Of a stretch of DNA of 64,000 nt, positions 52,083 to 64,000 are shown piece by piece. Both the position numbers and the translations under genes were made by a program. How positions within the stretch are numbered: the first letter of the stretch is position 1; each line of letters begins with the position of its first letter. The notes beneath the pieces were generated by a model. The model worked only from the letters and a program-made list of their open reading frames with translations, was not told the origin of the DNA and did not search any database. Source of the stretch: an uncultured Sphingomonadaceae bacterium (GTDB lineage: Bacteria > Pseudomonadota > Alphaproteobacteria > Sphingomonadales > Sphingomonadaceae); contig CANLQI010000001.1 of the NCBI GenBank assembly GCA_947493325.1, forward strand, positions 1,689,375 through 1,753,374. Reading direction: 5' to 3'.

Positions 52083-52158
52083 GGGCCCTTAGCTCAGTCG
52101 GTAGAGCAACTGACTTTTAATCAGTAGGTCGCTGGTTCGAACCCAGCAGGGCTCACCA
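52083..52158 (+). tRNA. tRNA-Lys (anticodon TTT)
   Basis: A 76-base cloverleaf with encoded CCA. Acceptor GGGCCCT pairs with AGGGCTC (one G-T wobble); D arm gctcagtcggtagagc; anticodon arm CTGACT-TTT-AATCAG reads Lys codons AAA/AAG; T arm ctggttcgaacccag; discriminator A, then CCA at 52156-52158. It stands at the junction between core genes and the island, a usual integrase target. Confidence 0.97.
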
Positions 52159-52216
52159 TTATTTCAATGGTTTATGGTTGATTAAGCGGCAATTTCTGCC
52201 GCGAAAATCCGTTCGC

Positions 52217-52233
52217 GGTACCAATGAGGTACC
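52217..52233. other. GGTACC-N5-GGTACC pair, left copy
   Basis: Two GGTACC hexamers 11 bases apart (52217-52222 and 52228-52233), 59 bases after the tRNA-Lys gene. The same spaced pair occurs at 61332-61348 with a different spacer. Repeated short sites near a tRNA junction are how integrase arm sites look. The rest of the 251 bases between the tRNA and hsdR shows only a GCGGCA/TGCCGC hairpin (52186-52202). Confidence 0.5.
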
Positions 52234-52409
52234 AGAGCTGCACTAAGCGGGATCCTGTTAAATTCTATCAATTTCTGCTCTGCGCCCTAGGCCCCGTTGG
52301 CGGAACATCCGTTAGCACGTTGCCAGTTCGTTTATATGCTGGCTAATTTTGGCCATCCATTTATACCTACAAGTCACACGTAAGTGATCAGCTTTTGGGC
52401 AGAGTGTTA

Positions 52410-55358
52410 ATGACAGAACTGAAAATTGAAAAGGAACTGATCAACAAGTTGATTGATCTGAAATATGCCCGCCGTAAAGACATTTATGATCGCGCTTCTT
52501 TAGAAGCAAATTTCCGAGAAAAATTTGAAGAGTTAAATAGAGTCAAGCTGACTGATTCTGAATTCGCGCGGCTATTAGATGAAATCGTAACTCCAGATGC
52601 TTTCAAGGCTGCCCAGATATTGCGTGGGCGTAACAGCTTTGAGCGTGAAGATGGGACGCCACTTAACTACACCCTCGTGGACATAAAGGACTGGTGCAAA
52701 AACACCTTTGAGGTGGTGAGTCAGCTCCGCATGAACACAGACTATAGCCATCACCGCTACGATGTGGTTTTGCTTATTAACGGCATACCAGCTGTTCAGA
52801 TCGAGCTAAAAGCACTGGCTATCAGTCCACGGCGGGCGATGCAGCAAATCGTCGATTACAAAAACGATCCAGGTAACGGTTACGGCAAAACTCTGATGTG
52901 CTTCATCCAGCTCTTTGCCGTCAGTAACAGGAATGACACCTGGTATTTTGCTAACAACAACAAGCAGCATTTCAATTTCGACGCAGATGAACGCTTCCTG
53001 CCGCTCTATCAATACGCCTCTGAAGATAACAAAAAAATCACTCAGCTCGATCAGTTTGCGGAGCAATTTCTGGCCAAATGCACGCTCGGAAATATGATCA
53101 GCCGTTACATGGTGTTGGTCGCCAGCGAACAGAAGCTGATGATGATGCGGCCATACCAAATTTATGCAGCCAAGGCGATTGTCGAAAGCATCCACCAAAA
53201 TTGCGGCAATGGCTATGTGTGGCACACGACTGGCAGCGGCAAGACGCTGACATCGTTCAAGGCTTCGACCCTGCTAAAAGACAACCCGAATATCGAAAAA
53301 TGCCTGTTTGTGGTTGATCGAAAGGATTTGGATCGACAGACCAGAGAGGAATTTAACCGCTTTCAAGAAGGCTGTGTTGAGGAGAATACCAACACCAGTA
53401 CGCTGGTTAAACGGCTGCTGTCAGATGACTATGCCGACAAGGTCATTGTAACCACGATCCAGAAGTTGGGTCTGGCGCTAGATAGCGAAAACAAGCGCAA
53501 CTACAAAGAGCAGCTCGAGCGGCTGCGCGACAAACGCATGGTGTTCATTTTTGACGAGTGTCACCGCTCTCAATTCGGCGAGAACCACAAAGCAATAAAA
53601 GAGTTTTTTCCCAATGCTCAGCTTTTCGGTTTCACCGGTACGCCGATTTTCGAGAGAAACGCGAGCTACCAGCAGGTTGAAGGGCAGCAGGCATCGCTAA
53701 AGACCACAGAGTCCATCTTTCAGCAGGAGCTCCACGCTTATACGATCACCCATGCAATTGAGGACGGCAACGTCCTCCGTTTCCATGTCGACTATTTCAA
53801 GCCTGAAGGAAAGAACGCGCCAAAGCCGGGCGAGCCGCTCGCCAAGAAGGCAATTGTCGAAGCCATTCTTGAAAAGCATGACGCGGCCACGGCAAGCCGA
53901 AAATTCAACGCCATTCTGGCCACGGCATCCATCAATGATGCCATCGCCTATTATAAGATGTTTGGCGAGATTCAGGCGGAACGTGCTGCACAAGACCCGG
54001 AATTTGAACCGCTGAACATTGCCTGCGTGTTCTCTCCCCCGGATGCACGGCAGATACAGGAGGATTTGCCGCAAGAGAAAGCCGACAACTCGGTGGCGCC
54101 CGACGAGAAAAAGGCTGCGCTCAAAGAGATCATCGCTGATTACAATGCACGCTACAGCACGAACCACAGCATCAATGAGTTCGATCTATATTATCAGGAC
54201 GTGCAGAAACGTATTAAGGATCAGCAATATCCCAATCGCGATCTGCCGCACTCCGAAAAAATCGATGTGGTCATCGTCGTCGATATGCTGCTGACAGGGT
54301 TCGATTCCAAATTTTTGAATACGCTCTATGTTGACAAGAACCTCAAATATCATGGCCTGATACAGGCTTTCTCGCGCACCAATCGCGTCCTCAATGATAC
54401 CAAGCCTTATGGCAATATCCTCGATTTCCGACAGCAGCAGGATGCGGTGGAAGATGCCATCGCGCTATTCTCGGGTGAGCAAAGCGATAACGCGAAAGAA
54501 ATCTGGTTAGTCGATAAAGCACCGGTCGTTATCGAGAAGCTAGACGGTGCGGTACAAAAGCTGGATGACTTTATGCAATCACAAGGGCTGGCTTCCAAAC
54601 CGGACGCGGTTCCCAACTTGAAGGGTGATGCAGCGCGGAGTCAGTTTATCAACCTGTTTAAGAATGTGCAGCGCCTAAAAACACAGCTCGATCAATACAC
54701 CGATCTCACGCCGGAAAACACCGAGAGCATAGAGCAGATCATTCCCAAGGAACAGCTGCAAGGGTTCAAAGGTGTATATCTGGAAACAGCGCACCGATTG
54801 AAGGCGCAACAGAGCAAGAGCGGTGCGGAGACCTCATCAGAAGTTGACCAGCTTGATTTTGAGTTTGTGCTTTTTGCCTCCAACGTGATTGATTATGACT
54901 ACATTATGGAGCTGATCGCCCGTTACTCGCAGGAAAAACCCGGCAAGCAGAAGATGACGCGCCAAGAGTTGATCGGCTTGATCCAATCTGACGCAAAATT
55001 CATGGATGAGCGCGAGGACATCACCGAATATATCAATTCCTTGCAAGCCGGTGGGGGCCTGAGCGAGAAAGGCATTCGCGGCGGCTATGAAGCTTTCAAG
55101 AATCAGAAAAATGCCGATGCCTTGGCCGCGATTGCTGGCAAATATGGCTTGAAAAATGAACCCTTACAGGAATTTGTCGATATTACGATCCAGCGGCTGA
55201 TTTTTGATAGCAGCCTTTTGACCGACTTGCTGGCTCCTTTGGAGCTAGGCTGGAAAGCCCGCACCCAAAAAGAGCTCGAGCTGATGGAGGAATTGGGGCC
55301 GTTGCTGAACAAGCTCGCCGACGGGCGTTCGATATCTGGGTTGAGCGCTTATGAGTGA
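52410..55358 (+). CDS. hsdR: Type I restriction enzyme, motor/nuclease subunit HsdR
   Basis: A 982-residue restriction subunit that translocates and cuts foreign DNA in complex with HsdM and HsdS. The nuclease domain has the PD-(D/E)xK pattern D118 ... E132-x-K134 (RYDVVLLINGIPAVQIELK). The helicase motor shows Walker A TTGSGKT (273-279), DECH (382-385) and FTGTP (408-412), with motif VI-like QAFSRTNRVL. ATG 52410 (MTELKIEK) is chosen over an upstream TTG. Pattern and length are nearest to the EcoR124/type IC group. hsdS overlaps its end by eight bases. Confidence 0.95.
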   Translation: MTELKIEKELINKLIDLKYARRKDIYDRASLEANFREKFEELNRVKLTDSEFARLLDEIVTPDAFKAAQILRGRNSFEREDGTPLNYTLVDIKDWCKNTFEVVSQLRMNTDYSHHRYDVVLLINGIPAVQIELKALAISPRRAMQQIVDYKNDPGNGYGKTLMCFIQLFAVSNRNDTWYFANNNKQHFNFDADERFLPLYQYASEDNKKITQLDQFAEQFLAKCTLGNMISRYMVLVASEQKLMMMRPYQIYAAKAIVESIHQNCGNGYVWHTTGSGKTLTSFKASTLLKDNPNIEKCLFVVDRKDLDRQTREEFNRFQEGCVEENTNTSTLVKRLLSDDYADKVIVTTIQKLGLALDSENKRNYKEQLERLRDKRMVFIFDECHRSQFGENHKAIKEFFPNAQLFGFTGTPIFERNASYQQVEGQQASLKTTESIFQQELHAYTITHAIEDGNVLRFHVDYFKPEGKNAPKPGEPLAKKAIVEAILEKHDAATASRKFNAILATASINDAIAYYKMFGEIQAERAAQDPEFEPLNIACVFSPPDARQIQEDLPQEKADNSVAPDEKKAALKEIIADYNARYSTNHSINEFDLYYQDVQKRIKDQQYPNRDLPHSEKIDVVIVVDMLLTGFDSKFLNTLYVDKNLKYHGLIQAFSRTNRVLNDTKPYGNILDFRQQQDAVEDAIALFSGEQSDNAKEIWLVDKAPVVIEKLDGAVQKLDDFMQSQGLASKPDAVPNLKGDAARSQFINLFKNVQRLKTQLDQYTDLTPENTESIEQIIPKEQLQGFKGVYLETAHRLKAQQSKSGAETSSEVDQLDFEFVLFASNVIDYDYIMELIARYSQEKPGKQKMTRQELIGLIQSDAKFMDEREDITEYINSLQAGGGLSEKGIRGGYEAFKNQKNADALAAIAGKYGLKNEPLQEFVDITIQRLIFDSSLLTDLLAPLELGWKARTQKELELMEELGPLLNKLADGRSISGLSAYE

Positions 55359-56640
55359 GAAGGTTGGCCAAACTCTAGTACCGAAGCTGCGATTTCCCGA
55401 GTTTGAGAATGAACCGGAATGGCAGGAACAGCGCATCGGAGACGAGGATTTTGGTGAACTGTTCAAAGGCAAAGGAATATCAAAGGCGGATATTGACCCT
55501 AGTGGCCTGACCCCATGCATACGCTACGGCCAGCTATACACTGACTATGGCGAAGTGATCTCGAAGGTTTCCTCGAAAACCAATATTGATTCTGACAAGC
55601 TCTTTTTGAGTGAAAAGAGCGATGTGATCATTCCAGCATCTGGTGAGACGCAGGAGGACATCTCTACGGCGTCATGTGTAATGCTGGACGGTGTTGCTTT
55701 GGGGGGTGATTTGAATGTTATTCGGTCAAATCATAACGGAGTATTCGTCAGCTACGCATTGAATGGGCCACAAAAGCAAGCAATCAGTAAAATTGCGCAA
55801 GGCAATGCCGTCGTTCATCTCTATCAAAAGCAACTTGCCAAGCTGAAGCTGCAATTACCGGGTGAACCCGAACAACAAAAAATTGCCGATTGTCTCTCAT
55901 CCATTGATATTCTGATCGCACTGAAAGAGCAAAAGCTGGAAGCGCTTCAGGATCACAAAAAAGGCCTGCTGCAAAAGCTCTTCCCGGCACAAGGCGAAAC
56001 AGTGCCAGAATATCGCTTCCCTGAATTTCGCGATACAGCTGACTGGGGGGTGAAGCCATTGAGCAAGGTAGCGAAAGTCTTGCCCGGTTTCGGCTTTCCC
56101 AGAGAATATCAGGGCAGAACCGAGGGGAAATATTCCTTCTATAAAGTCAGTGATATCTCAACAGCGGTCCTAGATGGCCATGTCTCCATATCTGATTCAG
56201 CGAACTATATTGATGAGCCTACGCTCAATATACTGGGCGCTAAAGCTCTCCCTTCGGGAACGACTATATTTGCGAAAATCGGGGAGGCAATTCGTCTCAA
56301 CAGAAGAGTAATGACTTCGCAGCCCAGTATTATTGATAACAATGTTGCTGGGCTCAAGCGTATAAAGGGGGAGGCAACAGATTTGTTTCTCTATTACACA
56401 CTCTTAAAAATTCAGCTGGCGGAATATTCCGGCGGGGCTGTTCCATCGGTCAATAAATCTACGATTGAGAGCATTCTGGCACTGTTCCCTTGCATAGATG
56501 AGCAGAATAGAGTCACCGATTGTTTGGCATCGCTCGATATGATTTTGCAAAATCAGTCAGCCAAGATTGTTGCCCTCAAGAATCACAAAAAGGGCCTGAT
56601 GCAGCAGCTTTTTCCATCGCTGGATGAGGTGAAAGCATGA
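55351..56640 (+). CDS. hsdS: Type I restriction-modification specificity subunit HsdS
   Basis: A 429-residue DNA-recognition subunit with two target-recognition domains, each starting near a PxLRFPEF/PEYRFPEF segment and ending in a helical conserved region. The two conserved regions are clear internal repeats: EQQKIADCLSSIDILIALKE...HKKGLLQKLFP (about 170-215) and EQNRVTDCLASLDMILQNQ...HKKGLMQQLFP at the end. Each domain reads one half of a split target; the sequence recognised cannot be read off. Overlaps hsdR by eight bases and the prrC-like gene by four. Confidence 0.94.
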   Translation: MSEKVGQTLVPKLRFPEFENEPEWQEQRIGDEDFGELFKGKGISKADIDPSGLTPCIRYGQLYTDYGEVISKVSSKTNIDSDKLFLSEKSDVIIPASGETQEDISTASCVMLDGVALGGDLNVIRSNHNGVFVSYALNGPQKQAISKIAQGNAVVHLYQKQLAKLKLQLPGEPEQQKIADCLSSIDILIALKEQKLEALQDHKKGLLQKLFPAQGETVPEYRFPEFRDTADWGVKPLSKVAKVLPGFGFPREYQGRTEGKYSFYKVSDISTAVLDGHVSISDSANYIDEPTLNILGAKALPSGTTIFAKIGEAIRLNRRVMTSQPSIIDNNVAGLKRIKGEATDLFLYYTLLKIQLAEYSGGAVPSVNKSTIESILALFPCIDEQNRVTDCLASLDMILQNQSAKIVALKNHKKGLMQQLFPSLDEVKA

Positions 56641-57737
56641 CGCGATTTGCCGATATTGATGCACTCGCGGCGGAGCTTCGCAATCAGTCTGCCGAAAAGA
56701 AATATCTGTTGCTGTTCGCCTATAATGGCACCGGCAAAACCCGGCTTTCGATGAAGTTTAAGGATATCGGTAAGCAGGATGGTGAAGCAGATACGCTCTA
56801 CTTCAACGCCTTCACCGAAGATCTTTTTACATGGGACAATGACCTTGAGAGCGACAGTACGCGCGTCTTGCAATTGAATACCGATTCCCAGTTCTTTGCG
56901 GGGCTGGAAGAACTGGAAATGGACACCCGCATCCGCGCATTTTTGGATCGCTTTGCGGATTTCGATTTCACCATCGACTATGACAATTGGGCCGTCAGCT
57001 TTTCGCGCGAGATCGAAGGTGACGAGAGTGAAACAGGTCGCGATACAATTACCGATATCAAAGTGTCGCGCGGTGAAGAGAATATCTTCATCTGGTGTTT
57101 TTTCCTCGCTATCCTGCAACTCGCTATCGATGGCGCGGAAGTGTATGCATGGGTCAAGCATGTCTATATCGACGACCCAATATCCTCTCTGGACGAACAC
57201 AACGCCATTGCTGTTGCGACTACCTTGTCCACACTCCTGAAGGGGCAGGATCGCCTTCATGCGGTAATCTCATCCCACCACACCTTGTTTTTCAACGTGC
57301 TGTGCAATGATCTCAAAAAGGCGAAGCGATGTTTTCTTCACAAAGATAGCGGCTCAGGGGAATTCGTGATGCAGGATACGGGCGACACGCCGTTCTTTCA
57401 TCATGTTGCCTCGCTCGCGGAACTGGTGAAGGCGAGAAATGATGGCACTCTCTACACCCATCACTTCAACACCCTGCGCACCATCTTGGAAAAATCAGCC
57501 AGCTTTCACGGGTTTAAAAAGTTCTCAGATTGTTTTGAGAGCGGCGATGGCAATCAGGACGATGCTTTGCGCAGCAGGATTGTGAACCTGTTGAGCCATG
57601 GCAACTATTCTCTCTACGAACCGCGCGAAATGCTAGAAGATAACAAGCAGGTTTTTGGTGAAATATTGGATGAATTTCTGGATCGCTATGCGTTCAACCC
57701 TGAAGTTATCCGGGCAGAAGGGGACACCGCACAATGA
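56637..57737 (+). CDS. prrC: PrrC-type anticodon nuclease
   Basis: A 366-residue protein of the PrrC family, RNases that cut tRNA in the anticodon loop. The N-terminal ABC-like ATPase has Walker A AYNGTGKT (28-35), the PrrC mark YFNAFTEDLFTWDNDLE, an ABC signature SRGEE (144-148), Walker B/D-loop YIDDPISSLD (177-186) and the switch SSHH (212-215). The C-terminal nuclease shows R281-x3-E285 (LRTILEK) and H321 (LLSHGNYS), matching the R320-E324-H356 triad of E. coli PrrC. It lies inside a type I operon, overlapping hsdS and hsdM by four bases each, so silencing by that complex is expected. Confidence 0.88.
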   Translation: MTRFADIDALAAELRNQSAEKKYLLLFAYNGTGKTRLSMKFKDIGKQDGEADTLYFNAFTEDLFTWDNDLESDSTRVLQLNTDSQFFAGLEELEMDTRIRAFLDRFADFDFTIDYDNWAVSFSREIEGDESETGRDTITDIKVSRGEENIFIWCFFLAILQLAIDGAEVYAWVKHVYIDDPISSLDEHNAIAVATTLSTLLKGQDRLHAVISSHHTLFFNVLCNDLKKAKRCFLHKDSGSGEFVMQDTGDTPFFHHVASLAELVKARNDGTLYTHHFNTLRTILEKSASFHGFKKFSDCFESGDGNQDDALRSRIVNLLSHGNYSLYEPREMLEDNKQVFGEILDEFLDRYAFNPEVIRAEGDTAQ

Positions 57738-59359
57738 CAGAGCAAGAACAGAAAAAGCTTGGAGAAATTCTCTGGTCAATCGCCAACAAGCTGCGCGGGG
57801 CGATGAATGCCGATAATTTCCGCGATTATATGCTGTCTTTTCTCTTTTTGCGGTATCTTTCGGATAACTATGAAGCCGCTGCGAAAAAGGAGTTGGGGGC
57901 GGATTATCCCGAAATGCTGCCTGATGTGCAGGCTCAGGTGAACGCGACGCCATTACAGATTTGGTATGAAGAAAATGAAGCGGACATAGAAGCCTTTGAA
58001 GACCTCATGCGCCGCAGAGTCCATTATGTCATCAAACCTGACTACCTTTGGAACAGCATCGCAGAAATGGCCCGCAAGCAGGATGGTGACTTGCTCGATA
58101 CGCTACAAAAAGGCTTCAAGTTTATCGAAACCGAATCTTTTGAAAGCACATTTCAGGGATTGTTTTCAGAGATCAATCTGGGTTCGGAGAAGCTGGGAAA
58201 AGCCCTTCCGGACCGCAATGAGAGGCTTTGCAGTATAATCAGCAAAATTGCCGAAGGTCTCAATGAGTTTTCAACGTCCACCGATACACTGGGCGATGCC
58301 TATGAGTATCTGCTTGCCCAGTTTGCCGCCGGTTCAGGCAAAAAGGCCGGTGAATTTTATACGCCGCAACAAATTTCCTCGATCCTGTCTGCCATCGTCA
58401 CGCTGGACAGCCAAGATCCGTCCAGCGGCAAGAAAAAGCGCCTGGAAAGTATTTTTGATTTTGCCTGTGGTTCGGGCTCGCTGCTGCTCAACGTCCGCAA
58501 TCAGCTGGGCAAGCACGGCATAGGCAAAATCTACGGGCAGGAAAACAATGTAACAACCTACAACCTCGCGCGCATGAATATGCTGCTCCACGGGGTGAAG
58601 GATTCCGAATTTGAGATATTCCACGGCGACACGCTCAAAAACGATTGGGACATTCTGAGAAATCAAAACCCGGCCAGGAAACCAAAATTCGATGCGGTCG
58701 TCGCCAATCCGCCATTCAGCTACCGCTGGGAACCGACCGATGCTCTGGGCGATGATATGCGCTTCAAGAACTATGGACTCGCGCCTAAATCAGCGGCTGA
58801 CTTTGCGTTCTTGCTGCACGGCTTTCACTATCTCAAAGATGAAGGCACGATGGCAATTATTCTGCCGCATGGCGTTCTGTTTCGTGGCGGCGCGGAGGCA
58901 CGGATACGGCGCAAGCTGCTAGAGGATGGCCATATCGACACGGTGATTGGCCTGCCGTCAAACCTCTTCTACTCAACCGGCATTCCGGTTTGCATTCTTA
59001 TTCTGAAGAAATGCAAAAAGTTTGATGATGTGCTGATTATCAACGCCAGTGAACGCTATGATCCCGGCAAACGACAGAACGCTCTGAACCCGGATCAGAT
59101 CAAAGACATTATTGAGACCTATCAATTTCGGCGGGAGGAGGAGCGCTTCTCGCGGCGTGTGAGAATGGAAGAGATAGCGTCAGAGACCAACGACTATAAC
59201 CTCAACATCTCTCGCTATGTCAGCACGGCGGAACCAGAACCGATTATCAACCTAAAACAAGTTCATACAAAACTGGAACAGGTTGACACGAAGATCAAAA
59301 AAGCAACCGCTGAGCACAATGCATTTTTGAGAGAGCTTGGGCTGGATTTGCTGCCTTAA
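57734..59359 (+). CDS. hsdM: Type I restriction-modification methyltransferase HsdM
   Basis: A 541-residue N6-adenine methyltransferase that protects host DNA and supports restriction. An N-terminal helical domain (to about 160) leads to the catalytic core: GEFYTP (206-211), SAM motif FDFACGSGSL (241-250), and catalytic NPPF (325-328). It ends in a coiled region (VHTKLEQVDTKIKKATAEHNAFL). Usual length. Being last in the operon (R-S-PrrC-M) is unlike the E. coli order M-S-prrC-R. Confidence 0.95.
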   Translation: MTEQEQKKLGEILWSIANKLRGAMNADNFRDYMLSFLFLRYLSDNYEAAAKKELGADYPEMLPDVQAQVNATPLQIWYEENEADIEAFEDLMRRRVHYVIKPDYLWNSIAEMARKQDGDLLDTLQKGFKFIETESFESTFQGLFSEINLGSEKLGKALPDRNERLCSIISKIAEGLNEFSTSTDTLGDAYEYLLAQFAAGSGKKAGEFYTPQQISSILSAIVTLDSQDPSSGKKKRLESIFDFACGSGSLLLNVRNQLGKHGIGKIYGQENNVTTYNLARMNMLLHGVKDSEFEIFHGDTLKNDWDILRNQNPARKPKFDAVVANPPFSYRWEPTDALGDDMRFKNYGLAPKSAADFAFLLHGFHYLKDEGTMAIILPHGVLFRGGAEARIRRKLLEDGHIDTVIGLPSNLFYSTGIPVCILILKKCKKFDDVLIINASERYDPGKRQNALNPDQIKDIIETYQFRREEERFSRRVRMEEIASETNDYNLNISRYVSTAEPEPIINLKQVHTKLEQVDTKIKKATAEHNAFLRELGLDLLP

Positions 59360-59495
59360 AAGACAAGGAAACAGAAACTTATGCTCCGTGTGAATTGAAA
59401 GAGCCCAATCAATAGCTTGGCAGGTTTGAGCCCCGCCAGCATGCAATTGACGTGGCTAAGGTGGAAGCAAATTTTAGCCTTGAGCGGAAGGTAGG

Positions 59496-59789
59496 TCAGT
59501 CGATCCAATAGGCAAGGAAGCTACTCGATATCGCCGCCAACAACAGCCATCTTTCAACCTGCATCACAGTCCCCAACCTCCACCGTCTCCCCTCAAACCA
59601 AAGCTTTTCGACAAAGATAAGATTGAAGCCCATGCGGGTACCTTCAACAGTGATGTTCTTCCCGACCAGCTTTTTGACATTGCCGCTTAGATCCAGTTCC
59701 CAGAACCCGCCGCCCTCCATTTCTAGCTTATAACCCAATGGCGCGCGGCCGAGCACGCCGGTCACGGTGTGACGTGTTCCCATCGGCAT
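59496..59789 (-). CDS. DUF5818 protein with C-terminal hydrophobic tail
   Basis: A 97-residue protein. MPMGTRHTVTGVLGRAPLGYKLEMEGGGFWELD...LVGKNITVEGTRMGFNLIFVEKLWFE is the DUF5818 beta-barrel pattern known from sphingomonads and their mobile elements. A hydrophobic stretch (WLLLAAISSSFLAYW) at the C-terminus is extra for the family and might be a membrane anchor or a read-through tail. Function unknown. It lies opposite in direction to the type I operon. Confidence 0.72.
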   Translation of the reverse strand: MPMGTRHTVTGVLGRAPLGYKLEMEGGGFWELDLSGNVKKLVGKNITVEGTRMGFNLIFVEKLWFEGRRWRLGTVMQVERWLLLAAISSSFLAYWID

Positions 59790-59857
59790 TTCGGGTATCT
59801 CCCCGGAAGTCGTCTGCGGTACGCCCCCGCTTTCGACTTCACACCTAACCTTGGTGA

Positions 59858-60090
59858 TCGGGGAGTTAGTAAACTGAGATAACCCAGCCCCTGTAACCTT
59901 TAGACCCGAGAGTCCTGGACATACGTCACAGGCTCCCCGACCCTAAGGCAAGGAGTGTGGTGCTATTTCGGTCAGCACCGACCGGTTATCTCAAGGGTTA
60001 CTAAGCCCCGGAACCATGCGTAGTGGTTCGCTAAGCTGTATGGGACAGGTAGAGCATTTAGGCAATGGAAAGCTGTATAGCCGGGGTTTT
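59858..60090. ncRNA. Candidate structured RNA region
   Basis: No convincing gene lies in the 363 bases 59790-60152, but strong complementarity does. TGAGATAACC (59875-59884) pairs with GGTTATCTCA (59984-59993); TCGGGGAG (59858-59865) pairs with CTCCCCGA (59933-59940); these two stems interleave, as in a pseudoknot. Local hairpins are GGTGCT/AGCACC (59959-59979) and AACCA/TGGTT (60012-60028). CCCCGG (60006-60011) pairs with CCGGGG (60081-60086), followed by TTTT, which looks like a plus-strand transcript end. It matches no RNA family I recognise. Confidence 0.4.
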
Positions 60091-60152
60091 GCCTGACTTA
60101 GCTCAGAGTTTTTCGTAAAATGTGCTTTTTCTAGCAGCCAGAGAGACAAAGC

Positions 60153-60743
60153 ATGGGAGGTATAGGCTCCGGACAGAAACGCTCGACCAATCGCGGAGCG
60201 GTTGAGCAGTTTCCATCCATCGACCTGCGCATTTTAAAACGCGCTGGCCTGCTTCGTTTCAGCGAATGTACATATGACACATTATGCTGGTCAAATCAGG
60301 GCCTAGAGCAGCTCAGTGTGCGAATTTTTATCGATTTGAGCGATACTGACGATGCATATCTAAAAATCCTGTTTGATACCGCCACGATACCGCAGAAATT
60401 TGGAGCAGCCATAGAATGTGTCCCTTGCCCTTATGGTGGCTATCGATGCTATTTTCTGTGCCCATTGGATGGGAAGCGATGCGAACAGCTTTTCTTTGCT
60501 GATGGCTGCTGGGCATCGCGCAGAGCGCACAAACTCATTTACACCTCACAAAGCCAAGACCAGCTTTCCCGTGCTCGCCGCAATGTCGTCAAGCTGCATA
60601 GGCAGATCAACGGTGATATCCGATATAAACGACCGCGCGGCCAAAATAGACGCCGCAAGATCAAAAGGCTCAACTGCGCTAAATCTCATGCTCAAGAGCT
60701 ATATCGGGAGCGACTATTCAATCTTTGCAGCGACAAACCCTGA
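60153..60743 (+). CDS. Island-type conserved hypothetical protein with cysteine cluster
   Basis: A 196-residue basic protein beginning MGGIGSGQKRSTNRGAV, the start of a family common in alphaproteobacterial mobile elements. The middle has CVPCPYGGYRCYFLCPLDGKRCEQLFFADGCWASRRAHKLIYTSQ, a likely zinc-ribbon; the family's terminal C-x2-C-H seems degenerate here (GCWASRRAH). The C-terminal 60 residues are strongly basic (RYKRPRGQNRRRKIKR), suggesting nucleic-acid binding. Function unknown. Confidence 0.75.
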   Translation: MGGIGSGQKRSTNRGAVEQFPSIDLRILKRAGLLRFSECTYDTLCWSNQGLEQLSVRIFIDLSDTDDAYLKILFDTATIPQKFGAAIECVPCPYGGYRCYFLCPLDGKRCEQLFFADGCWASRRAHKLIYTSQSQDQLSRARRNVVKLHRQINGDIRYKRPRGQNRRRKIKRLNCAKSHAQELYRERLFNLCSDKP

Positions 60744-60805
60744 AATCGAAGCCCGCCTTTCACTGATTGCGATCTCATTCTTCATCAGATAAGCTCTTAA
60801 CGGTT

Positions 60806-61324
60806 ATGCCCCCAAAAAAAGCACTTTATGAGCAGTTACTTGCACGTCAGGTAAAAGCGCACAAATGTGGCACCTTTTACGAGGCCTGTTGGTTCGCACA
60901 TGCAATTTTTGAAGATCGAACTAGAAGCATTGTCCAAAATTCTGGCGACCGAACGGGCTATGGCAAACAAATAAATGAAAAAATCGAGTTGATTGAAAAA
61001 CGACTGGAGGAAAAGAAGAATAAGCTTGTTAACGGCAAACGGAAACGGAACAAAAAATCCGGCAAATATGAAAAGGTTCCCAAATGGCCTTATCTACACA
61101 CTCTAGACCCTACCCTGATAGCTGACCTCAAAATTTGGACAAAGAGTAGAAACGATCTTGTGCACAAACTAGCGAGTGGCGCATTTTCGATTTCTGAGGC
61201 AGATAACGCAATCAAAAATCTTTCTGAAGAAGCTATCGATCTTTCAAAGGAGATTTGTGCGAGCGCTCGCCGCGTTAAGGGGCACCAAAAGAAGTTTGCC
61301 ACACCGAAAGCGAGAACCAAGTAA
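60806..61324 (+). CDS. HEPN-like protein, possible RNase or Abi component
   Basis: A 172-residue helical, basic protein. The segment WTKSRNDLVHKLASG carries R-x4-H (RNDLVH), the hallmark of HEPN nucleases, inside a helix-rich context with KIELIEKRLEEKKNKLVNGKRKRNKKSGKYEK before it. ATG 60806 is used (MPPKKALYEQLL). No antitoxin-like partner is adjacent; the preceding gene 62 bases upstream is the only candidate. The HEPN assignment rests on the motif and is tentative. Confidence 0.6.
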   Translation: MPPKKALYEQLLARQVKAHKCGTFYEACWFAHAIFEDRTRSIVQNSGDRTGYGKQINEKIELIEKRLEEKKNKLVNGKRKRNKKSGKYEKVPKWPYLHTLDPTLIADLKIWTKSRNDLVHKLASGAFSISEADNAIKNLSEEAIDLSKEICASARRVKGHQKKFATPKARTK

Positions 61325-61331
61325 ACGGTCT

Positions 61332-61348
61332 GGTACCTACACGGTACC
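61332..61348. other. GGTACC-N5-GGTACC pair, right copy
   Basis: GGTACC at 61332-61337 and 61343-61348, with the same 11-base period as the pair near tRNA-Lys. It starts just after the HEPN-like gene stop. The following 255 bases to the next gene hold an open frame with no start of its own or recognised domain, and I see no other structure there. Confidence 0.45.
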
Positions 61349-61603
61349 GACAACCCGAACCTTTCCCGAACAAGATACGCAAAACTGCGCTCCAAGACTG
61401 CCAAATGGCCTGATTTGCAATCAGTGGGTCGGTTGGAAGATTTCCGGACAACGCCGGTGTGACATCCAAGACGAAATACAAACAACGCCAAAATCAGTAG
61501 GTCGTTACTATTGGAGAAATAGGGCTCCGCATTGGGATTATCCCTGACATCCGTCAGAAACCTATCTTAATGGATTGGATGGTCAACAATAGGAGTGACC
61601 ATC

Positions 61604-61876
61604 ATGACCAAAGCAAAGACACTTACAGTCAAGTCCATCAAATCCAATCCTTCGCCGCAGACGTCCGATATCGTTACGCTGGCCGACTTATGCAAAGAAC
61701 TTAAAATCAAACCGCGCGAAGCTCGTATGATGTTGCGGTTGGCTATAAGCAAGAAAGGCCAATATCCCGCCTTAACCGAAACCCATATCCCCCGCCAACC
61801 TTGGCGATGGGATGCAGGATCAAAGGCATTGGATGAGGCCAAAGCAGCCTTGAAGACTTCGATCAACCAAAAATAA
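61604..61876 (+). CDS. Small probable DNA-binding protein
   Basis: A 90-residue basic protein, MTKAKTLTVKSIKSNP..., with VTLADLCKELKIKPREARMMLRLA, which reads as a helix-turn-helix of the kind used by plasmid and island regulators. ATG 61604 has a perfect AGGAG eight bases upstream; a GTG at 61595 lies inside that site and is rejected. It is convergent with the primase-polymerase gene. Regulatory role is inferred. Confidence 0.7.
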   Translation: MTKAKTLTVKSIKSNPSPQTSDIVTLADLCKELKIKPREARMMLRLAISKKGQYPALTETHIPRQPWRWDAGSKALDEAKAALKTSINQK

Positions 61877-61992
61877 ACAACCGAAGTTACTTTTCAGGTT
61901 TTCACGTTTCAGGAGCCGGTGATCGTCATTTTTCTAGTATATAGTGACCGCCAATTGGTAGCATTGAATACTTGAAAACCTGAAAAGCTATT

Positions 61993-63756
61993 TCATTTGG
62001 ACGGCAAAGACCAAACCCATGTCTTTCCGTCTCGCATCGTGCTGATATCAAGTTCCTTTCTGGCGCGATCCAATGTCGATGCGGTAATAGCACGTGCTTC
62101 CGCTTGGGACTTAACCGATGCGGCCGCCTTTGGACCATTTGCCAAAGTTTCGAGCAAATACTCCTTTGCAACTTGCCGCTCGTCCTGATCCGGCCCCCGT
62201 GATGATGTTCCGCTGGAGAAAAACAAGTCAGCATCCACATCGGCAAACTGATCAAATGTTATTGTCGGCTGTTCACCAATGCGCCCATTGGCATTACCCA
62301 TCTTGAACAACATCGCCTCACCCTTCTCAAAATTGGTTTTCAGATGAAACACAACGAAACCACAAGTATCATCATCGCGCCGGGCAAGACCAAATTGATT
62401 GCGTGCAATACCGACAAAGTCGGTGGAGCCCATGCCTTTCTTCATGGCCTTGTCTTGCGGACCTTTGCCGAAATGTCGGACGCAGATGATAGCGCACCGA
62501 TGCTTTTCCGCGATCTCAGCCAACCGTGTCATAAATTCGCGGACATCAACATTGCTGTTTGAATCGATATTGCCAGTTATAAAAGCCTGTATAGGGTCAA
62601 GGATCACTAATCTTGGATCGTGTGCCTCTAATTCGCCATCCAACCAGTCGACCATTTCCTGAGACAATTGAAACCGGCGCGATTGGATAAATATGCGCGA
62701 CAGGTCGGCTCCGTTCGCCTGCAAGCGCTTTTTGATCACTGCGCCGGGCAAATCTTCAAAGTTGAACAAAAAACAATCACCCGGCTTAATCTTATCGCCA
62801 TTGGGCAATGTTTCACCCCGGCTGACTTGTGAACATAGCCAGACGCAAAATTGGCTTTTCCCATCGCCAGGATCGCCGTCCAACAGGCCAAGCGTGCCTA
62901 GACAGACATAAGGATACCAAAGCCAATCCAAATTTTCGTCAGGAATATCTGTGAAAGGAATAAGCGTTGGCAGTTTTTTGGCTGGATAACGCGACAGGCT
63001 GCGCGCAATGCTCCGAACTTCACGATCCGGCAAAGGCTTTTCAGACACACTTTGGTTGAGCGTCATCAGCGTTGCCAATATAGAGTCTTGTGGAACCCCT
63101 TTTGAACGCAGATAGCCACCAAATTTGGTCAAGGTATCGTTGCGAAGGCCCACAGGCAGAGGGTTACTATTCACCTTTTCAGGTTTTTTGTCATCGCACT
63201 TTGTGATCCCGGAGATGTTGGCAGGTAAATCCGCAATCGGATTGTCGTCCCATACCGCATAGATCGTTCCTGCAACATGCATAGAACCGGGGCCTATGAC
63301 ATAGCAACCGGGCCCGCTTTTGACGTCCAGTTTATCAGAGGCGCCATTTCTAGAGAGCATTTCCCCTAAAAAATAGAAATGAGGGCCACGCGCCGTTTGA
63401 ACGACAAAAGTTTTTGGAGGCCGATAGCGGGAGCGAAATTCTCGAAGCGCACCCGCACTGTCACAGTCGATTACCGCCAGCCCCTTGGTTGCCACCGCAT
63501 AGTTCATATCTGGATGCTTGCGGTGCCATTTGCGTATCTTTTTTAAGCTGGTAGTTGCGTTCTTCACGCCATTGGGAACCAGTTCACTGATCGGATGCTT
63601 TCCCGGACTTTCGCAATCTATGCGACTGCAATTGCAGCGACCATCGGTGATTCCATGTATGGGCAGGACAGGAATACCCTGCCCCGCAAACCATTCCATC
63701 ATACCAAGCACAGATGCCGAGCGATCAAAGTTTAGGTGCAATTTAGTGGATCGCAT
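61993..63756 (-). CDS. Primase-polymerase with AAA helicase domain (island replication protein)
   Basis: A 587-residue two-domain protein. The N-terminal prim-pol domain (to about 190) has GIPVLPIHG...CNCSRIDCESPGKHPI and the metal site AVIDCDSAGALREFR, then TARGPHFYF and GPGCYVIGPGSMH. A primase C-terminal module (LRNDTLTKFGGYLRSKGVPQDSI) follows, then a RepA/AAA_25 ATPase with Walker A GDPGDGKSQ near residue 300 and Walker B LVILDPIQAF. Such proteins start replication or aid maintenance of islands and satellite phages. A GGGAGG site precedes ATG 63756. Confidence 0.88.
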   Translation of the reverse strand: MRSTKLHLNFDRSASVLGMMEWFAGQGIPVLPIHGITDGRCNCSRIDCESPGKHPISELVPNGVKNATTSLKKIRKWHRKHPDMNYAVATKGLAVIDCDSAGALREFRSRYRPPKTFVVQTARGPHFYFLGEMLSRNGASDKLDVKSGPGCYVIGPGSMHVAGTIYAVWDDNPIADLPANISGITKCDDKKPEKVNSNPLPVGLRNDTLTKFGGYLRSKGVPQDSILATLMTLNQSVSEKPLPDREVRSIARSLSRYPAKKLPTLIPFTDIPDENLDWLWYPYVCLGTLGLLDGDPGDGKSQFCVWLCSQVSRGETLPNGDKIKPGDCFLFNFEDLPGAVIKKRLQANGADLSRIFIQSRRFQLSQEMVDWLDGELEAHDPRLVILDPIQAFITGNIDSNSNVDVREFMTRLAEIAEKHRCAIICVRHFGKGPQDKAMKKGMGSTDFVGIARNQFGLARRDDDTCGFVVFHLKTNFEKGEAMLFKMGNANGRIGEQPTITFDQFADVDADLFFSSGTSSRGPDQDERQVAKEYLLETLANGPKAAASVKSQAEARAITASTLDRARKELDISTMRDGKTWVWSLPSK

Positions 63757-63925
63757 CGCTACCTCCCGATGCCTGTGACTTCGCTTTATAGATCACATCT
63801 TGAGCCAAATATTCTAGGAACAGCGCCTTGAACTCTTGGCGGGATTTGACCGTAACAAAACGCTCCATGGTCCAATGTTCGCCGGTGTCAGGGTCGATGC
63901 AGGGACAACGAATGAGGATTTTCAT
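63743..63925 (-). CDS. Small island protein, unknown function
   Basis: A 60-residue protein, MKILIRCPCIDPDTGEHWTMERFVTVKSRQEFKALF..., with two close cysteines. Its stop overlaps the primase-polymerase start by 14 bases, and its ATG overlaps the stop of the AlpA-type gene (ATGA), so the three form one operon. No family recognised. Confidence 0.7.
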   Translation of the reverse strand: MKILIRCPCIDPDTGEHWTMERFVTVKSRQEFKALFLEYLAQDVIYKAKSQASGGSDAIH

Positions 63926-63999
63926 TTTTGACCTCCCCGCGCATTGGCGAGATCACGAATGTGCTGATCAACTTCCGACGCCATCCAAGCAACGGTGTG
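63922..63999 (-). CDS. AlpA-family regulator, C-terminal end (cut by window edge)
   Basis: Only the last 25 residues are present: HTVAWMASEVDQHIRDLANARGGQK. The V-A-W-x3-E-V-D-x-x-I pattern is the C-terminal end of AlpA/MerR-like excisionase regulators that sit next to integrases in islands. Overlaps the small gene downstream (ATGA). Confidence 0.6.
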   Translation of the reverse strand, partial: HTVAWMASEVDQHIRDLANARGGQK

Positions 64000-64000
64000 G

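Follow-up and report, generated by a model that had tools for sequence, protein, structure and literature searches.

The mechanism of the anticodon nuclease PrrC of Escherichia coli and its partner EcoprrI has been described in PMC3014915, where the genes stand in the order hsdM-hsdS-prrC-hsdR (M-S-C-R, with C for prrC). An Arg-x3-Glu...His triad was defined for EcoPrrC (R320, E324, H356) and tested in RloC (PMC2610378), and the PrrC nuclease domain has been assigned to the HEPN superfamily, whose RNases carry an Rx4-6H motif (PMC3710099). A four-gene system from Klebsiella quasipneumoniae isolate 170, cloned as HsdR, HsdS, PrrC and HsdM, was tested in 2024: it blocks T1 and T7, its PrrC (PrrC170) arrests growth, and tRNA sequencing points to tRNA-Lys as the target (PMC11555353).

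We have analyzed a 64,000-nucleotide stretch of DNA (the window) from an uncultured Sphingomonadaceae bacterium, in which prrC lies within a type I restriction-modification (R-M) operon ordered hsdR-hsdS-prrC-hsdM (R-S-C-M; Table 1). With its genes intact, the operon around 56637-57737 is a probable PrrC guard operon that belongs to the R-S-C-M lineage and is carried by a mobile element. It is of a kind already known, since the PrrC170 work had established and tested this arrangement in another bacterium.

Table 1. Features of the prrC operon and of the element that carries it (window positions).
Feature	Coordinates	Strand	Basis
tRNA-Lys(UUU) gene; element's left end in its 3' part	52083..52158	+	ARAGORN
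attL, 49-nt direct repeat from tRNA nt 32 (anticodon loop)	52114..52162	+	Exact repeat match
hsdR, 982 aa; alternative TTG start 52395	52410..55358	+	Pfam HSDR_N, ResIII, EcoR124_C; NCBIfam hsdR
hsdS, two specificity domains	55351..56640	+	Pfam Methylase_S, 2 stretches; PADLOC Specificity_I
prrC, predicted anticodon nuclease, 366 aa	56637..57737	+	PADLOC PrrC 443.6 bits, alignments, AlphaFold2 model
hsdM, 541 aa	57734..59359	+	Pfam N6_Mtase, HsdM_N; NCBIfam TIGR00497
Prim-Pol/AAA_25 replication-type protein of the element	61993..63756	-	Pfam
attR, exact second copy of the 49-nt repeat	Window-equivalent 66320-66368, beyond window end
Integrative element, ~14.2 kb	52083-64000, on to window-equivalent 66368 (L005 458-14743)

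The prrC reading frame starts with ATG and runs through 366 codons without an internal stop; an earlier interpretation made from the letters alone (the sequence-only reading) had placed it, its length and its four-nucleotide overlaps with hsdS and hsdM exactly. The product matches the PADLOC PrrC profile PDLC02360 over residues 6-357 (E = 1.3e-133), and Pfam AAA_13 with 47.8 bits, above the cut-off of 36. At the level of sequence both matches far exceed chance, and the first of them argues for the PrrC-type anticodon nuclease that the sequence-only reading had predicted. A scan of the 366 residues found no CXXC, the mark of the RloC zinc hook. Searching phage records with the product by tblastn gave no match, and PDB sequence searches returned no PrrC relative, either at E ≤ 1 with the single sequence or at E ≤ 0.01 with a 59-sequence profile.

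Conservation was scored across 91 aligned PrrC proteins, made up of those from 80 contig loci, six genomes of the same family and four plasmids, together with the window protein. R281, E285 and H321, which had been singled out from the letters as an R-x3-E...H triad, are invariant in all 91. S320 is kept in 88 and R314 in 90, the sole exception being locus L026. R314 and H321, spaced as R314-x6-H321, fit the HEPN Rx4-6H motif. Given the invariant triad, the conservation of R314 and this fit, the active site is likely to consist of R281, E285, R314 and H321, with R314 as the probable fourth residue beyond the triad named earlier. The ABC ATPase motifs (Walker A, 28-38; signature, 142-148; Walker B/D-loop, 176-187; H-switch, 214) are largely conserved in the same proteins. 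So is a candidate PrrC box at residues 55-69, YFNAFTEDLFTWDND, where 11 of the 15 positions are unchanged in 90 or more of the 91 proteins and positions 56, 59, 65 and 67 vary.

Structure prediction, which the sequence-only reading had suggested as a check, agrees with the ATPase motifs that it had recognized. An AlphaFold2 model built on 59 aligned sequences (58 of the 80 loci and the window protein; the other 22 were left out by eye, with no formal rule, and the conservation counts took all 80) reached a mean pLDDT of 84.3 and a pTM of 0.70; folding from the single sequence gave a pLDDT of 33.7 and was unusable. Residues 3-260 of the model are predicted to form a Rad50/SMC-like ATPase head, the best of the 50 fold matches listed having a Z-score of 13.2 and an rmsd of 3.1 Å over 214 residues. 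The C-terminal part is modelled as helices at 254-269, 275-291, 307-320 and 334-350. None of the 50 listed matches is a HEPN chain; these matches mainly cover residues 3-260, and the absence is no evidence against a HEPN fold.

Judged by their domain matches, hsdR, hsdS and hsdM are all intact beside prrC, and the motifs TTGSGKT, DECHRS, ELKA, FACGSGS and NPPF are present across hsdR and hsdM. The embedding of prrC in a type I restriction operon is thereby upheld, and so is the idea of a complete defence combining restriction with an RNase, insofar as the R-M partner is intact; the defence role itself is probable by homology. The EcoR124_C domain of HsdR fits a putative type Ic class. For hsdR we preferred the ATG start at 52410 over the TTG at 52395. 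Its end overlaps hsdS by 8 nt, and the stop of hsdS shares ATGA with the start of prrC (56637-56640), as does the stop of prrC with the start of hsdM (57734-57737). The sequence-only reading had gone on to propose a tight stoichiometric coupling of PrrC to HsdS and HsdM; the four-nucleotide overlaps suggest translational coupling only. Across the 80 homologue loci, with ORF starts set mechanically, exactly this overlap occurs at 40 of 74 scored S-C and 40 of 77 scored C-M junctions, and the genes lie more than 300 nt apart at 12 and 11 of the scored junctions, respectively. Scans for promoters and terminators yielded 9 and 10 sites; shuffled sequence gave 8.0 and 9.0.

The gene order had been regarded as unusual, and this view had to be abandoned. 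Three overlapping genome samples, in which PrrC was scored at E ≤ 1e-30 (family, 7 of 397 genomes; class, 8 of 385; phylum, 17 of 398), yielded 27 distinct PrrC genomes, including the window's own. The neighbours of prrC are arranged as hsdR-hsdS-prrC-hsdM in 13 and as hsdM-hsdS-prrC-hsdR in 13, and one genome has a PrrC remnant before hsdR; at L117 and L118, both within the 27, the contig stops short of hsdS. The window's order is one of two common ones, equal in frequency to the E. coli order in the sampled genomes, and PrrC170, with the same order, is published and tested (PMC11555353). The arrangement is standard, and the false lead of a rare order is now removed. The 80 nearest homologues were chosen by similarity and therefore represent the norm of the R-S-C-M branch only: the full R..S..C..M order is seen in 64, a further 15 are incomplete but fit it (8 S-C-M, 3 R-S-C, 2 R-C-M and 2 C-M), one differs, with hsdS downstream of hsdM (L114), and none is M-S-C-R.

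Judged by protein identities and trees, the two gene orders correspond to two lineages of Hsd and PrrC. The 12 other R-S-C-M genomes encode an HsdM with 71-75% identity to that of the window; for HsdR and HsdM, identity to the window proteins is 33-35% in the four M-S-C-R loci read at length and 25-40% in partial M-S-C-R stretches. PrrC proteins of the R-S-C-M group share 46-61% of their residues with the window protein and those of the other group 29-34%; genome G033 (locus L026) is the exception. In the PrrC tree (91 proteins) as well as in the HsdM tree (82), the five M-S-C-R members group together as a single clade (support 1.0). One PrrC locus from the host's class (G653) equals the pTM1 sequence of the alphaproteobacterium Tistrella mobilis over the 1000 bases compared. 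What stays constant in both lineages is the position of prrC downstream of hsdS, with hsdR and hsdM swapping around the pair, which makes HsdS, or the S-C unit, the first candidate for the silencing contact.

Two loci deserve separate mention. The PrrC at 9407-10516 of L026 is 28-34% identical to the 11 PrrCs compared (33% to the window's) and lacks R314; it sits in an R-S-C-M operon with HsdR and HsdM 75% identical to the window's and a shortened hsdM of 445 aa, which suggests either a third type of PrrC or a copy in decay. L134 (genome G845) has a broken PrrC remnant upstream of hsdR, an indication that R-M loci can lose PrrC.

We consider it highly probable that the window protein, which falls in the R-S-C-M lineage, is a PrrC anticodon nuclease guarding the type I R-M enzyme encoded beside it. 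The protein family, the intact motifs and Hsd partners, the operon layout and the mobile-element context are directly observed; the silencing, trigger, substrate and cut site we infer by analogy. As in the E. coli EcoprrI system, the HsdRSM complex would keep PrrC silent until a phage anti-restriction factor disables HsdRSM on unmodified DNA. The ABC-ATPase head would then switch on the C-terminal nuclease, and R281, E285, R314 and H321 would cleave tRNA-Lys on the 5' side of the wobble base, whereupon translation, and with it the infection, would stop. We know of no Stp-like trigger for this host. A very unlikely alternative reading makes the locus an inactive relic in which PrrC or the R-M enzyme no longer functions: PrrC does decay elsewhere, as the one remnant among the 27 genomes attests, and a shortened hsdM accompanies the divergent PrrC of L026, but in the window none of the four reading frames is interrupted, and the checked motifs are present.

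The lineages also differ where tRNA recognition may take place. The segment before H256 of the window PrrC, MQDTGDTPFFHH, is of the DTPFFHH type, whereas three of five M-S-C-R proteins compared have KHGD(S/A)N(R/K)SFSYH in its place; we take the window segment to align with EcoPrrC residues 284-294. Asp287 of EcoPrrC is said to contact the wobble base (PMC3014915), and its equivalent here is Thr248, in an ambiguous, gapped part of the alignment. At this position of the gapped alignment, Thr is found in 74 of 86 R-S-C-M proteins and Asp in 4, against Asp in 4 of 5 M-S-C-R proteins. With Thr248 in this place, the protein could have another substrate or act on another modification state of it, and the recognition segment is a lead that may offer a handle on substrate choice. 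In its fullest form, which we put forward tentatively as possible though rather unlikely, the idea is that there are two deep operon lineages and that the R-S-C-M branch, including the window PrrC, reads the wobble base of tRNA-Lys via a different peptide (TPFFHH-type, with Thr for Asp287); if so, R-S-C-M PrrC may answer to other modification states or phage decoy tRNAs than EcoPrrC does. The same differences in segment and residue, and the cutting of other tRNAs by RloC relatives (PMC3874168), could be taken to mean that, with the same fold and guard logic, the R-S-C-M branch or the window member has a different target, either a tRNA other than tRNA-Lys or tRNA-Lys in a different modification state. 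We regard this as distinctly improbable in view of PrrC170, an R-S-C-M system found by tRNA sequencing to target tRNA-Lys (PMC11555353). Since PrrC170 still has this target, any change would more likely concern modification preference than the tRNA chosen.

The sequence-only reading made no mention of the integrative element around the operon. An integrase, a tRNA target and flanking direct repeats, the marks of a tRNA-targeted integrative element, are all found here: the tRNA-Lys(UUU) gene immediately precedes hsdR, and a tyrosine integrase adjoins attR, with an AlpA-like gene nearby, both past the window end (L005). The R-S-C-M operon is cargo of this element, inserted in the gene of PrrC's presumed victim, because of the repeat pair at tRNA-Lys, the integrase and the lack of a second core copy in two sister genomes. 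These genomes (G087 and G151) have the same tRNA, no second core copy by whole-genome search and no PrrC, and the rebuilt tRNA-Lys does not differ from that of either sister species. To the right of the repeat, blastn matched nothing in 16.5 kb of G087 or 6.5 kb of G151, bar about 28 nt beside the G087 tRNA, and tblastx gave one weak protein-level stretch some 15 kb away in G087; the flank right of the element has a lower G+C of 0.43. With this flank unmatched in the sisters and lower in G+C, support for an empty site comes chiefly from the side of the tRNA. The exact Lys anticodon-arm pattern matches the genome only once and the exact CUU pattern not at all, and tRNA-Lys(UUU) appears to be the only tRNA-Lys gene, judged by two exact-pattern searches and one BLAST search, which could miss a divergent copy.

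The repeat thus begins inside the anticodon loop of what is apparently the sole tRNA-Lys gene, and the sisters have the tRNA without a second core copy, so one might suppose that the insertion is functional, with integration or excision affecting tRNA-Lys supply or immunity. Yet no tRNA-Lys lies near prrC in any of the 80 homologue loci, and any tRNA in only 7, within flanks of at most 10 kb on contigs that often end sooner, so that a distant attachment site could be missed; moreover, the rebuilt tRNA is unchanged, and tRNA-Lys is a general integration site. We judge a functional insertion extremely unlikely. Insertion at tRNA-Lys as a recurrent feature of PrrC finds no support in the count of 0 in 80 within these flanks, and immunity through an altered tRNA-Lys is rejected on the identity of the rebuilt tRNA with that of both sister species. 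Ten further PrrC loci (six from the same family and four from plasmids) include three with a tRNA, none of them Lys, and among the titles and abstract starts listed in a search of the literature there is no report of a PrrC element in tRNA-Lys. As the link to tRNA-Lys is absent in the 80 loci and the rebuilt tRNA is unaltered, the position of the operon in the tRNA-Lys gene is best read as coincidence.

Several related operons carry inserts. Between hsdR and hsdS of an R-S-C-M operon, L029 (3949-7736) encodes a TrlF-type ATPase and a Schlafen/AlbA_2 protein by domain search; the R-S gap of L048 holds ORFs of the same sizes, L041 has the larger ORF, and the gaps of L046, L050 and L058 equal that of L048 at 3780 nt. 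Between hsdS and prrC, L065 (6016-9986) has a two-gene insert, PDC-M23A and PDC-M23B by PADLOC, the latter a HamB-like helicase, which is another candidate defence pair nested in a PrrC operon; inserts resembling it occur in L056 and L096, and a helicase-sized ORF in L044. An association of PrrC with RhuM is on record (PMC3710099). By domain search a RhuM-family gene adjoins prrC downstream in L059 (11179-12186), and RhuM-like genes recognized by a similar sequence start follow prrC in L089 and L095 and precede it in L070 and L074. The insert of L047 contains a Bro-N gene by domain search.

Compared with known systems, the window PrrC shares with RloC an ABC ATPase and the same catalytic triad, but RloC has a coiled-coil/CXXC zinc-hook insert, which the window protein lacks, and is rarely R-M-linked (PMC2610378). 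In EcoprrI-PrrC, too, prrC immediately follows hsdS within a type I operon, and the ABC head and R-x3-E...H triad are shared; this system differs in that hsdR and hsdM are swapped and in its Asp287-type segment, which the window PrrC does not keep. Four M-S-C-R loci serve here as stand-ins for the E. coli proteins, and their HsdR and HsdM share only 33-35% identity with those of the window. PrrCs from K. quasipneumoniae plasmids, other than PrrC170, are 61% identical to the window PrrC, in an operon with two other genes between R and S-C-M. PrrC170 itself comes from a different host, but has the same four genes in the same order, and its stated 35% identity to EcoPrrC is close to the 30-34% between the window PrrC and four M-S-C-R PrrCs.
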